The notes beneath the pieces are model-generated. The model was not told the DNA's origin, did no database searches, and saw only the letters and a list, made by a program, of their open reading frames with translations. From NCBI GenBank assembly GCA_944388175.1, contig CALXHR010000003.1, positions 170,904 to 234,903 on the forward strand: a stretch of DNA of 64,000 nt. The letters run 5' to 3'. Position 1 is the stretch's first letter. Every line of letters starts with the position of its first letter. This document shows, one piece after another, positions 15,055 to 19,037 of this stretch. Made by a program: the position numbers and the translations under genes. Source of the stretch: an uncultured Gemmiger sp. Its GTDB lineage: Bacteria; Bacillota; Clostridia; Oscillospirales; Ruminococcaceae.

Positions 15055-16503
15055 TCAACCCTGTTTCTGGTAGAGGTACCAGGTCACTTCGCCCTCGCCG
15101 CCGTCGTAACGGCAGGCGTCGATGCAGGCATATTGCGGGAACCGTTCCTGCAAATTGCCGGCCAGCGCCACGGCAAAGTCGACGGCGCCGCTTTCCAGCA
15201 GGGTGTCCTGCTCCTGCCACTGGTCTTGCAGCGGCATGTTGGTGATGCAGAAATACCGGCAGGGCGGCAGCAGCCCGGCGGCCGTGTAAAAACCGCCGTC
15301 CAGCGTGCCGTAATTGAGCAAACTTGCGCCCGGCACGGCGTTGATGCACGCCGCAAAGCGGTTTTGCGGCAGCGTACCGGCCGCGCGGCTGCGCAAGGCG
15401 CGGTTGGGGCTGGCCACCGCGCAGGCCAGCGCCGCGGCTGCCAACGCCAGCCAGGGCGCGGCCGTGCGCAGCGCACGGCCGCGCGGCAACCGCGCCGCCC
15501 CGGCCGCCAGCGGTGCCAACCCCAGCGGTGCAAAGACCGCCAGCACCAGCCCGTAATAGACGAGGTACCCGCCCGCCAGGCTCGTCAGCGCCAGGCCCAC
15601 CGCCAGCGCGCAGGCCCAGCCGGCCGCCGCACGGCGGCCGGTGCACAGCGCCCAGACCAGGAACAGCGCAAACAGCGCCGCCCCGGGCAGCGCATCGCGC
15701 ACCGCCCACCAAAGATGCTGCGCCAGCGCGGCCGGGCCGCCGCTGTTGCCGGTGTACAGGAACAGGTTATCATAAAAATAGGCGGTGAACCAGTCCCCCA
15801 GCGCGCCGTGCACGCCAAAGTAGACGGCCCACGGCAGCGTGGCTAGCGCCATGCCGCCCAGGCAGGCCCCGCAGCTTTGGGCCAGCGCGCGGCCCCAGCC
15901 GCGGCGCGCGTACAGCGCCGCCAGCAACAGCACCCATACCAGGTAGAACCCCAGCACCGTATATTTGAGCCACAGCGCGCACCCGGCCAAAAAGCCCTGC
16001 AGCGCTACGGTGGGCAGCGGCATGCGACGCCCGGTTTGTACAACGCGCAGGCCGCCGTACAGCGCCGCCGCCAAAAACGGCAGCAGAAACTCCTCGGCGC
16101 TGCCGCCGTGGGAAAACGCCCGCCCCGCCGCGATGGCGGCCGCGGGCAGCGCCGCCCACGCCGGGTGCAGCGCGCGGCCGCACAGCAGCGACGCCGTGCG
16201 CACCCCCAGCGCCAGAAACAGCGCGAAAGAGAGCACTTCCAGCGCAAAAACGCCGGTAAACCCGGTGCGGTCGGCCAGCGACCCCAGCCCGTACAGCAGG
16301 TAGAGCACCGGGCCTTTGTGGTCGAACACGTCGCGGTACAGCACTTTGCCGCGAAACATCGCCTTGCCCATGGTATAAAAGATGTTGGCGTCCATCCAGT
16401 CGTTGAGCGCGAACAGCGGCGACGATTTGCTGCACAGCAGCAGGGCCGCGGCGGCTATGGCCAGATACCACAGCGCCCGTTTGGTTTTTGCCTGCCAGGC
16501 CAA
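15055..16503 (-). CDS. GT-C type membrane glycosyltransferase
   Basis: A 482-residue polytopic protein with about ten membrane segments. The motif RDVFDHKGPVLYLLYGLG near residue 60 is typical of the ArnT/PMT-like GT39/GT83 group, with the acidic residue in the first extracytoplasmic loop, and the C-terminal 90 residues form a soluble extracytoplasmic domain. It likely uses a polyprenyl-phosphate sugar donor. There is no good ATG: a GTG at 16512 sits directly against the AGGGGG site, whereas a TTG at 16503 has ideal eight-base spacing, so I use the TTG. It is followed by the DUF2142 gene after 74 bases and may be co-transcribed with it. Confidence 0.8.
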   Translation of the reverse strand: MAWQAKTKRALWYLAIAAAALLLCSKSSPLFALNDWMDANIFYTMGKAMFRGKVLYRDVFDHKGPVLYLLYGLGSLADRTGFTGVFALEVLSFALFLALGVRTASLLCGRALHPAWAALPAAAIAAGRAFSHGGSAEEFLLPFLAAALYGGLRVVQTGRRMPLPTVALQGFLAGCALWLKYTVLGFYLVWVLLLAALYARRGWGRALAQSCGACLGGMALATLPWAVYFGVHGALGDWFTAYFYDNLFLYTGNSGGPAALAQHLWWAVRDALPGAALFALFLVWALCTGRRAAAGWACALAVGLALTSLAGGYLVYYGLVLAVFAPLGLAPLAAGAARLPRGRALRTAAPWLALAAAALACAVASPNRALRSRAAGTLPQNRFAACINAVPGASLLNYGTLDGGFYTAAGLLPPCRYFCITNMPLQDQWQEQDTLLESGAVDFAVALAGNLQERFPQYACIDACRYDGGEGEVTWYLYQKQG

Positions 16504-16514
16504 CCCGCACACCC

Positions 16515-16556
16515 CCTAAAACAAACCGCGTCCCGGTCCGCTGGACCGGGGCGCGG
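16515..16556 (-). terminator. Terminator after the zinc-ribbon gene
   Basis: On the - strand a 14-bp nearly perfect GC stem (16543-16556 with 16526-16539) is followed by TTTGTTTT, stopping transcription from the zinc-ribbon gene before the membrane glycosyltransferase. Confidence 0.75.
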
Positions 16557-16596
16557 CGTGGAAATCAAACTTGCGTTACACGTACAGGCGCGTAAA

Positions 16597-17014: not shown

Positions 17015-17557
17015 TCACCCGCGCAGTTTGCGGCGGGCGCGTGCCAGTGCGTTGGCCACGCCTTTGGGCGTGATGCCAAGTTGCTGCGCCGTGCGCGCGG
17101 CGGGCTGGCCATGCAGGCTGGCCACCAGGGCGCGGCGCTCCAGCGGGGAAAGTTCGGTCTGCAGGCGGCCCAGCGTGGCGGCCCAGCGCTCCCCCGCGAT
17201 GGCCAGTTCCTCCGGCCCGGGCTGGGGGATGCTTTCGGCGTCCGGCAGCGGCACGCTGAAATTGAGCGGCGCGTGCTTTTTGCGCAAAGCGGCGCGGCGG
17301 GCGTCCTGCTGGGCGTGGCGGATGCACGCTGCGGCATAAGGCGCAAACGGCGCGCCGGCCGCCGGGCGGTAGCTGCGCACGGCCTGGAACAGGCCGATCA
17401 GCCCCTCCTGCACGGCGTCCTCAAAGTCAAGGCCGGGCGCCTGGCAGGCGGCCGCCCCTTTGCGGATGACCGGCATCAGCCGGGCGATGAGCGCGGCAAG
17501 CGCCGTCTCCTCCCCCTGCTGTGCGCGGGCCAGCATATCGTCATCGATGTTCTGCAT
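17015..17557 (-). CDS. Sigma-70 family RNA polymerase sigma factor
   Basis: A 180-residue sigma factor with region 2 at about residues 20-85 (LDFEDAVQEGLIGLFQAVRSY, the core-binding and -10 recognition helices) and a region 4 helix-turn-helix at the C-terminus (ARTAQQLGITPKGVANALARARRKL). Region 3 is missing. The region 2 motif LIGLFQAV resembles sporulation-type and stationary-phase sigma factors, but no specific member can be named. The ATG at 17557 has a GGAGAAGG site and a strong promoter upstream. No anti-sigma gene is adjacent. Confidence 0.85.
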   Translation of the reverse strand: MQNIDDDMLARAQQGEETALAALIARLMPVIRKGAAACQAPGLDFEDAVQEGLIGLFQAVRSYRPAAGAPFAPYAAACIRHAQQDARRAALRKKHAPLNFSVPLPDAESIPQPGPEELAIAGERWAATLGRLQTELSPLERRALVASLHGQPAARTAQQLGITPKGVANALARARRKLRG

Positions 17558-17591
17558 GAGACCTTCTCCACCGGCAGATACGAACACCTTT

Positions 17592-17620
17592 ATAATACCC
17601 GTAAGGGCACGGTTTGTCAA
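17592..17620 (-). promoter_or_regulatory. Sigma-A promoter of the sigma factor gene
   Basis: On the - strand TTGACA (17615-17620), 17 bp, TATTAT (17592-17597), about 35 bases before the start codon. Confidence 0.8.
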
Positions 17621-17678
17621 CCTGTTTTTTGGGCAATTTGCTGCATAGTCCCCGCGGGAATTTTGCGGCGGCGGGGGC

Positions 17679-17707
17679 TTGTAATCCGCTTTGCAACCTG
17701 CTATACT
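17679..17707 (+). promoter_or_regulatory. Sigma-A promoter of the oadB transcript
   Basis: TTGTAA (17679-17684), 17 bp, TATACT (17702-17707); transcription should start near 17714 and run directly into the riboswitch. Confidence 0.8.
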
Positions 17708-17718
17708 GGGCTGGAAAG

Positions 17719-17860
17719 GCAAAAGGGAGTAAGCGGCAGGGCCGGCCGGGGTGCGGGCCGTGCGTTTGGCATCGTCACCACGGGCGCTTTGCGCCCCGGG
17801 CCACACCCAAGCACTGAGACTTTTGCCGCGGCACACTTTGCTGCGGTAAAAGCCTTTTTT
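17719..17860 (+). ncRNA. yybP-ykoY manganese riboswitch with terminator
   Basis: The leader carries the conserved elements of the yybP-ykoY aptamer in order: GGCAAAAG opening the P1 stem (17719-17726), GGGAGTA just after it, TCGTCA before a GGGCGC/GCGCCC hairpin (about 17772-17800), and CTGAGAC leading into CTTTTGCC (17820-17827), which closes P1. The expression platform is a 13-bp terminator stem (17821-17833 with 17839-17851) and six T residues at 17855-17860. The terminator's left arm overlaps the 3' half of P1, so the two are mutually exclusive: metal-stabilised P1 should prevent termination, an ON switch for Mn2+. That logic is inferred from pairing; the family's Mn2+ response is established. 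Confidence 0.87.
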
Positions 17861-17903
17861 ATTGCCGCTTTGCCCCCGCACCAAAATAAGGAGGAACCCC
17901 TGT

Positions 17904-19037
17904 ATGGATGTTTTGCAAACGTTTGCCGGGCTGTTTGCCAACTTTGGCAACCTGACCTGGCAGATGGTCGTCATGTGGGCCATCGGCGGCCTGCTGGTCT
18001 ACCTGGGCATTGTCAAAAAGATGGAGCCCAGCCTGCTGCTGCCGATGGGTTTTGGCGCCATCCTCGTCAACCTGCCGTTGTCGGGCGCCATCACCCAGGG
18101 CGACACCGAAGGCCCCATCACCGCGCTGTTTGAAGCGGGCATGTCCAATGAGCTGTTCCCGCTGCTGCTGTTCATCGGCATCGGCGCGATGATCGACTTC
18201 GGCCCGCTGCTGGAAAAGCCGTGGCTGATGCTGTTCGGCGCGGCGGCGCAGTTCGGCATCTTCTTCACGCTGGCGGTCGCCGGGCTGTTCTTTGACCTGC
18301 CCGACGCCGCGTCCATTGCCATCATCGGCGCGGCCGACGGCCCCACGGCCATCTTTGTGGCCAACACACTGGGCAGCAAGTACCTGGGCGCCATCATGGT
18401 GGCCGCGTACAGCTACATGGCGCTGGTGCCCATTGTGCAGCCGCCGGTCATCCGCCTGTGCACGACCAAAAAAGAGCGCATGATCCGCATGCCCTACCGC
18501 AAGGGCAACGTGACCCAGACCACCAAAATCCTGTTCCCCATCGTGGTCACGGTGCTGGCCGGCCTGGTGGCCCCCGCCAGCGTGGCGCTGGTCGGCTTTT
18601 TGATGTTCGGCAACCTGATCCGCGAGTGCGGCGTGCTGAACTCGCTGTCCGAGACGGCGCAGAACGTGCTGGCCAACCTGATTACCATCGTGCTGGGCCT
18701 GACGGTGGCCGGGCAGATGACGGCCGACAAGTTCGTCAAGCCCGACACGCTGCTGATTTTGGCGCTGGGCCTGGTCGCCTTTGTGTTTGACACGGCCGGC
18801 GGTGTGCTGTTTGCCAAGCTGCTGAACCTGTTCCTGCCCGAGGGCAAAAAGCTCAACCCGATGATCGGCGCGGCCGGGATCTCGGCGTTCCCGATGAGCG
18901 GGCGCGTCGTCAACCAGATGGGCCTGGCCGAGGACAACCAGAACTTCCTGCTGATGTACTCCATCAGCGTCAACGTCTCGGGCCAGATCGCCTCGGTCAT
19001 TGCCGGCGGTTTGATCCTGACCCTGATGGGCATGTAA
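17904..19037 (+). CDS. oadB: Sodium-translocating decarboxylase beta subunit (OadB family)
   Basis: A 377-residue integral membrane protein of the OadB/MmdB/GcdB family, which couples decarboxylation of a carboxybiotin to Na+ export. About ten hydrophobic segments are visible. The re-entrant GAADGPTAIF motif near residue 150 carries the conserved Asp of the Na+ site, and the C-terminal ISAFPMSGRVV motif near residue 325 carries the second conserved segment. The length matches the family. The ATG at 17904 has an AAGGAGG site. It is followed after 12 bases by a gamma-like peptide, but no alpha (carboxyltransferase) subunit or biotin carrier lies in the window. Control by a Mn2+ riboswitch is unexpected for this family. 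Confidence 0.92.
   Translation: MDVLQTFAGLFANFGNLTWQMVVMWAIGGLLVYLGIVKKMEPSLLLPMGFGAILVNLPLSGAITQGDTEGPITALFEAGMSNELFPLLLFIGIGAMIDFGPLLEKPWLMLFGAAAQFGIFFTLAVAGLFFDLPDAASIAIIGAADGPTAIFVANTLGSKYLGAIMVAAYSYMALVPIVQPPVIRLCTTKKERMIRMPYRKGNVTQTTKILFPIVVTVLAGLVAPASVALVGFLMFGNLIRECGVLNSLSETAQNVLANLITIVLGLTVAGQMTADKFVKPDTLLILALGLVAFVFDTAGGVLFAKLLNLFLPEGKKLNPMIGAAGISAFPMSGRVVNQMGLAEDNQNFLLMYSISVNVSGQIASVIAGGLILTLMGM

Follow-up and report, generated by a model that had tools for sequence, protein, structure and literature searches.

A yybP-ykoY-family RNA leader ahead of the gene for a solitary OadB-like membrane protein in Gemmiger

The leader at positions 17715-17860 of the 64,000-nucleotide stretch of Gemmiger DNA analysed here (the window) is a real, conserved RNA switch, and it is almost certainly an RNA of the yybP-ykoY family. 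The reading that best accounts for the locus, and that we hold with reasonable confidence, is a yybP-ykoY-family ON switch, most likely for Mn2+, placed ahead of an OadB-like exporter of divalent cations. Under this reading, a common OadB-like protein of gut Clostridia, including Faecalibacterium, acquires a function that can be tested: it may help to clear excess manganese or a similar metal.

The source assembly is a Gemmiger bin of 1.75 Mb that is 69% complete. The leader sits between a sigma-factor gene on the minus strand and an OAD_beta gene on the plus strand (PF03977, 480.5 bits in a Pfam scan), and the closest protein to the product of the latter, with 99% identity, is from Candidatus Gemmiger excrementipullorum. 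The features of the locus are listed below.

17679-17707, plus strand: sigma-70-like promoter, TTGTAA-17 nt-TATACT, 9 of 12 matches
17718-17725, plus strand: 5' strand of the switch helix P1.1, GGCAAAAG (GGCAAAA at 17718-17724), from the sequence and as covarying helix 1
17725-17731, plus strand: 5' strand of the L1 loop, GGGAGUA, also in the RF00080 consensus and in loci flagged by RF00080, and near-invariant in 43 leaders, which had been gathered by that same motif
17732-17735, plus strand: 5' strand of P1.2, pairing with 17812-17815; three of the four pairs are standard in the window
17737-17766, plus strand: P2 hairpin, covarying; limits approximate, by eye
17767-17774, plus strand: 5' strand of P3.1, UGGC-A-UCG, pairing with 17797-17803; by eye, helix 4 in the covariation analysis
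17775-17781, plus strand: L3 heptamer UCACCAC, the putative metal site; its C, A and last C are invariant in 43/43 aligned leaders
17782-17796, plus strand: P3.2 apical hairpin, GGGCGC-UUU-GCGCCC, from the sequence; helix 5 in the covariation analysis
17816-17820, plus strand: 3' strand of the L1 loop, GAGAC; AGAC is invariant in the 43-leader alignment
17820-17827, plus strand: 3' strand of P1.1, CTTTTGCC (UUUUGCC at 17821-17827), common to the left arm of the terminator
17820-17860, plus strand: intrinsic terminator from a terminator scan, stem 17820-17852 (14 pairs), T-run 17855-17860
17888-17894, plus strand: ribosome binding site AAGGAGG, from the sequence
17904-19037, plus strand: OadB-like membrane protein of 377 aa, solitary (IQ-type) clade of PF03977, from Pfam, homology and tree

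The aptamer-like region covers 17718-17827 and the terminator region 17820-17860, and a transcript start is expected near 17714 from the promoter-like site at 17679-17707. All of the motifs named in a preliminary description of this DNA are in place (GGGAGTA at 17725-17731, TCGTCA at 17772-17777 and CTGAGAC at 17814-17820). The P1 stem given there also exists, but its 5' strand had been set one base off, and 17718-17725 pairs with 17820-17827. The left arm of the terminator does reuse the 3' strand of this stem, as had been described. By an automatic rule, 45 of 46 leaders have a terminator arm whose start falls within the P1.1 3' strand or next to it. Among these, L045 and L048 look false; L080 fails the rule, though its terminator is visible by eye. 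The ON switch that had been proposed fits this anatomy, and its direction is one that we infer. Covariation bore out a junction that joins P1.2, P2 and P3 in the yybP-ykoY manner; it is three-way in the window, where P4 is absent as in most oadB leaders, and a hairpin-like insert was seen by eye in L024, L031, L041 and L042. MFE folding of the leader gave z = -1.77, which is not striking, and the terminator scan found 2 sites against a shuffle mean of 1.4. Because the z value is modest and the terminator count lies near the shuffle level, the case for the leader rests on conservation. On the other side of the locus, a divergent promoter-like site on the minus strand (TTGACA-17-TATTAT, 17620-17592, 11/12 matches) reads into the sigma-factor gene, and the listed 322-aa sigma-factor frame, 17015-17983, overlaps the leader; its real start is probably closer to 17560.

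The best 80 of 575 OadB relatives in genome contigs were examined by pattern and by R1, a covariance model built from 43 oadB leaders (alignment A1). The two approaches agree on an element ahead of oadB in 45 of these 80 relatives, and R1 adds one weak match, on the wrong strand of L039. The occurrence ahead of oadB homologs in related genomes, which the preliminary description had put forward as a check, is thereby established. The training set of R1 consists of the window and 42 of the 45 element-bearing loci; L010, L011 and L034 were left out of A1 (two near copies and one long insert). Across the 43 leaders, standard pairs fill 84.3% of 986 proposed pair cells, compared with 34.7-47.4% in slid controls, and changes on both sides occur at 19/23 pairs. 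Double-changed cells in A1 number 213, against 78.1 in shuffles, and a separate alignment of 24 more distant leaders gives the same covariation picture. A second model, R2, was made from these 24 oadB leaders, all of them from Clostridia other than Gemmiger and Faecalibacterium; when the 64-kb window was searched with it up to E 10, the leader was the sole match (E 3.9e-7). Since this match is unique in 64 kb and the paired cells covary relative to slid controls, the leader stands above chance.

The Rfam model of the family, RF00080, gave no match in the 64-kb window at its gathering score, which is a database threshold and no biological feature, none in 17600-17950 even at E 10, and none in the Gemmiger genome itself. 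Two riboswitches of E. coli, those of mntP and alx, which are reported to respond to Mn2+ (PMC9603457), served as controls: RF00080 gives the mntP riboswitch 41.6 bits against a cut-off of 45, and alx is absent from its matches at E 0.01. Because mntP falls below the cut-off and alx is unlisted, the negative result with RF00080 cannot refute family membership, and we rejected this model as a sufficient test of it. A third model, R3, was built from 13 MntP/GDT1 leaders only (12 of the genes confirmed by Pfam and L170 by tblastn). In the 64-kb window its sole match is the leader (E 6e-4). Thus the covariance check proposed at the outset came out negative for RF00080, which is too weak a model here, and positive for the model of MntP/GDT1 leaders. 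R3 also recovers 39/45 element-bearing oadB loci, missing L006, L009, L010, L011, L018 and L026, and gives no match on 35 oadB loci without the element. It recovers in addition L104 and L107, two oadB leaders that are sub-threshold RF00080 matches (26.6 and 24.4 bits). In the other direction, R1 (E 7e-4 to 6e-10) and R2 each recover 19/19 of the loci flagged by RF00080 that were searched, a set from which the 20th, L110, a 33-base match, was left out. The ORF following L103 has no Pfam match. On the E. coli sequences, mntP is found by R3 at E 8e-7, by R2 at only E 0.16 and not by R1, and alx is found by R1 at E 0.029 and not by R2 or R3. The leader models recover the RF00080-flagged loci and the MntP/GDT1 model recovers the leader, so that family membership is seen both ways. 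A large group of riboswitches escapes the Rfam manganese model.

R1 has three matches in the Gemmiger genome, which precede genes for OadB (63.8 bits), a P-type ATPase (42.9 bits, L169) and MntP (34.8 bits, L170), and it has a match in 192/391 genomes of the class. The genes behind 72 R1 matches were typed by tblastn as Na/Ca exchanger (24), OadB (22), P-type ATPase (18) and MntP (1), with 7 untyped. The first 32, namely 30 listed loci and two of the Gemmiger genome, comprise 15 OadB, 12 Na/Ca exchangers, 4 P-type ATPases and the one MntP. The next 40 comprise 14 P-type ATPases, 12 Na/Ca exchangers, 7 OadB and the 7 untyped, and were taken from the following 44, leaving out three known oadB matches and G506. 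A Pfam scan of six of the untyped genes gave HlyD, ABC, Band_7, CitMHS (twice) and a K+ transporter, and the seventh lies at a contig edge. R1-type elements at L266, L267, L280, L263, L252 and L254 precede such CitMHS/ArsB-like, K+ transporter, Band_7 and HlyD/ABC export genes, which are possible further targets of the riboswitch family. R1 elements also occur as close pairs, at L147 (1501-1605 and 2653-2754) and on contig C199 of G436 (16056-16172 and 16466-16582), possibly as tandem riboswitches or as the elements of two adjacent regulated genes. The preliminary description had placed OadB outside the known targets of yybP-ykoY riboswitches. Our full-text literature searches agree with this, having returned nothing that links yybP-ykoY to OadB or oxaloacetate decarboxylase except a paper on a Na+ riboswitch, and an earlier mention in the tables of the main papers is possible.

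The L3 loop has the sequence expected of the metal site. The Mn2+ riboswitch of L. lactis has an L3 of U C A41 A U43 U C, in which N7 of A41 contacts Mn2+ (reported in PMC6754395 and PMC9190785). The L3 of the oadB leaders reads (U/C/A) C A n n n C, and by sequence A17777 of the window would be the counterpart of A41 in L. lactis (A48 in X. oryzae), the metal-contacting adenosine. The L3 of E. coli alx, UCAUUAC, is the same as that of L049. The idea, drawn from the RF00080 consensus, that this L3 is unlike those of all Mn2+ riboswitches was ruled out by the L. lactis L3 in PMC6754395. By a simple pattern, which left a few rows unclear or mistyped (probably L097 and L281), and in a biased sample, where ACA rows come mostly from RF00080 matches and the contrast arises partly from which model found the loci, a UCA-type L3 was assigned to 22/24 typed OadB, 22/27 Na/Ca exchanger and 17/19 P-type ATPase leaders. 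The ACA type is that of the MntP leaders, and two OadB leaders, L104 and L107, have it as well. Downstream of R1 matches with a UCA-type L3, Na/Ca exchangers and P-type ATPases are far commoner than MntP. The two L3 types might differ in ligand, and the split sharpens the question of whether they sense different metals.

The protein encoded behind the leader belongs to a clade of its own. In a tree of 126 OAD_beta proteins made by a quick method (60 that have the element, 35 that came from the same search and lack it, and 31 canonical), the canonical proteins form one clade with a support of 100 and the window protein lies on the opposite side; the solitary rows were picked by similarity and the canonical ones by top Pfam score, so intermediates may be missing. 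The presence of the element requires 13 changes on this tree, of which well-supported branches force 6 or more, and such recurrent gain or loss of one riboswitch type argues for a functional tie. In a broad sample, comprising the full-length copies of 60 genomes of the class and, among short fragments, only L139, the element was found at 5/28 IQ-type copies, not counting the window and with fewer than 300 bases upstream at L221, L240 and L212. No R1 element was found at 48 canonical copies (the 31 of the tree and 17 more). The link between riboswitch and OadB is therefore common in close relatives and sporadic beyond them. One OadB locus, L054, is labelled Methanobrevibacter and falls within Clostridia in the tree; it is likely a mis-binned contig.

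The neighbours of the window oadB are the sigma-factor and DegV genes, without decarboxylase partner genes. The gene had been described as one of an OadB pair, but a single OadB lies near the leader, and the second, canonical copy of the genome is on a separate contig (C5, L138:6016-7767), with OadG immediately upstream. No riboswitch element was found within 13 kb around this canonical gene; a P-type ATPase gene lies just past it on the opposite strand. A biotin-carrier reading frame was found in the flanks examined of 0/95 solitary-clade loci, 69 of which extend 800 bases or more to either side of the match, compared with 23/31 canonical loci. Membership of the window OadB in a local decarboxylase operon was rejected, given its sigma-factor and DegV neighbours and the clade loci without a biotin carrier. 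The Na+-site residues D203, S382 and N412 (StOAD numbering; D145, S327 and N357 in the window) are kept in 126/126 proteins, and E40 and R389 are also kept in the solitary clade, which throughout carries substitutions next to the cation site: T148I, G201A, V384F, A387S, P411V/A and V416Q. According to PMC7274780, changes at T148 and some other positions did not severely inhibit decarboxylation, and T148I alone therefore says little.

By analogy with the L1-L3 metal mechanism of the L. lactis and X. oryzae riboswitches (reported in PMC6754395 and PMC11087558), metal at the L1-L3 interface would dock L1 and L3 and lock P1.1. The locked helix would block the terminator that uses the same 3' strand, and the gene would be transcribed; without metal, transcription would end ahead of the gene. 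In this way metal would stabilise P1.1 and exclude the terminator. The product, related to the OAD beta subunit but standing alone, would carry Mn2+ or some comparable divalent cation out of the cell, probably against Na+ or H+.

We take Mn2+ to be the probable physiological ligand of the leader, and Ca2+ is its serious rival. The same RNA family might contain an L3 subtype that senses mainly Ca2+, or several divalent ions, with OadB, the Na/Ca exchangers and the P-type ATPases forming a calcium regulon. The way in which L3 type tracks target family, ACA for MntP and mostly UCA for the other three, would suit such a regulon, but which model found the loci accounts for part of this contrast, the OadB leaders L104 and L107 are of the ACA type, and the UCA type also occurs in the Mn2+ riboswitch of L. 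lactis and in the Mn2+-responsive alx of E. coli (PMC9603457). The three-way-junction riboswitch of mgtA is reported to bind Ca2+ more tightly than Mn2+, although in vitro Mn2+ is the stronger activator of its transcription (PMC9495176), and variants for other divalent ions are said to be likely in this family (PMC7266159). On balance we consider the calcium regulon unlikely. Far less probable still are two readings that dispense with the family altogether. A Na+ riboswitch would suit a sodium pump, and Na+-I riboswitches are reported with oxaloacetate decarboxylase genes (PMC9337991); however, the Na+-I model RF03071 has no match in the leader at E 10 or in the Gemmiger genome, and the core GGUUGGGC...CUUCUGGGGUGG of its consensus has no resemblance in the leader, so that the assignment was rejected. 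A plain attenuator, or chance hairpins without a ligand, would agree with the unremarkable folding score, but is hard to reconcile with an L3 that is conserved while the stems covary across diverse genomes, and we give it very little weight.

As for the protein, the preliminary description had offered two options, a link of Mn2+ excess to a Na+-coupled decarboxylase pump or an OadB that moves metal. Under the former, OadB would still be a pump subunit that, in metal excess, replaces or supplements the canonical beta subunit and borrows the alpha and biotin subunits, which would constitute a metabolic link. The retained cation and catalytic residues are compatible with this, as are the short OadG-like genes after some copies and the biotin carrier beside one of the 28 IQ-type copies of the second sample (L223). 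A canonical copy is also present in the Gemmiger genome and in 27/29 sampled genomes with an IQ-type copy, compared with 20/31 others (Fisher p 0.011 over 60 non-independent genomes). Set against these points are the missing biotin carriers in the flanks of the solitary-clade loci and the clade-wide substitutions beside the cation site, and we regard this explanation as improbable. The gene probably does not encode part of such a pump, since its OadB-like clade is a distinct one whose members mostly have no partner genes close by, and the current annotation of this clade as a sodium-pump decarboxylase subunit is probably wrong. Metal transport appears to be the better of the two options; whether the window OadB itself moves a divalent metal we regard as evenly balanced. 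Extending the exporter reading to the whole solitary clade, we tentatively suggest, with somewhat more doubt than belief, that it consists of unrecognised exporters of Mn2+ (or Mn2+/Ca2+), elevator-type antiporters freed from the decarboxylase that repeatedly gained yybP-ykoY control, and that the UCA-type L3 may form a ligand subclass of its own.

Among known systems, the Na+-I riboswitch (DUF1646, RF03071) resembles the present case in being sometimes linked to oxaloacetate decarboxylase genes, but the leader differs from it in sequence and fold. Na+-I matches, some below the cut-off, lie a few kb from canonical OadB genes on G337:C114, on G351:C1 near 1.23 Mb and on G375:C241. Canonical OadB proteins may follow Na+ and the other clade Mn2+. 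With the beta subunit of the OAD pump, the window OadB shares homology over nearly its full length (E 2e-94) and the residues D203, S382 and N412; unlike that subunit, it belongs to a separate clade with substitutions adjacent to the cation site, lacks partner genes nearby and stands under a riboswitch. The yybP-ykoY riboswitch of Streptococcus mgtA (PMC9495176) also has a three-way junction and a cation transporter downstream, but its target is an ATPase and it is reported to respond to both Mn2+ and Ca2+, with a higher affinity for Ca2+ and a stronger in vitro activation of transcription by Mn2+. The leader departs from the usual RF00080 RNA in its three-way junction without P4, in lying below Rfam detection and in preceding OadB, and shares with it the L1 strands GGGAGUA and AGAC, the helices P1.2, P2 and P3, an L3 with the invariant adenosine, and a terminator that shares P1.1.
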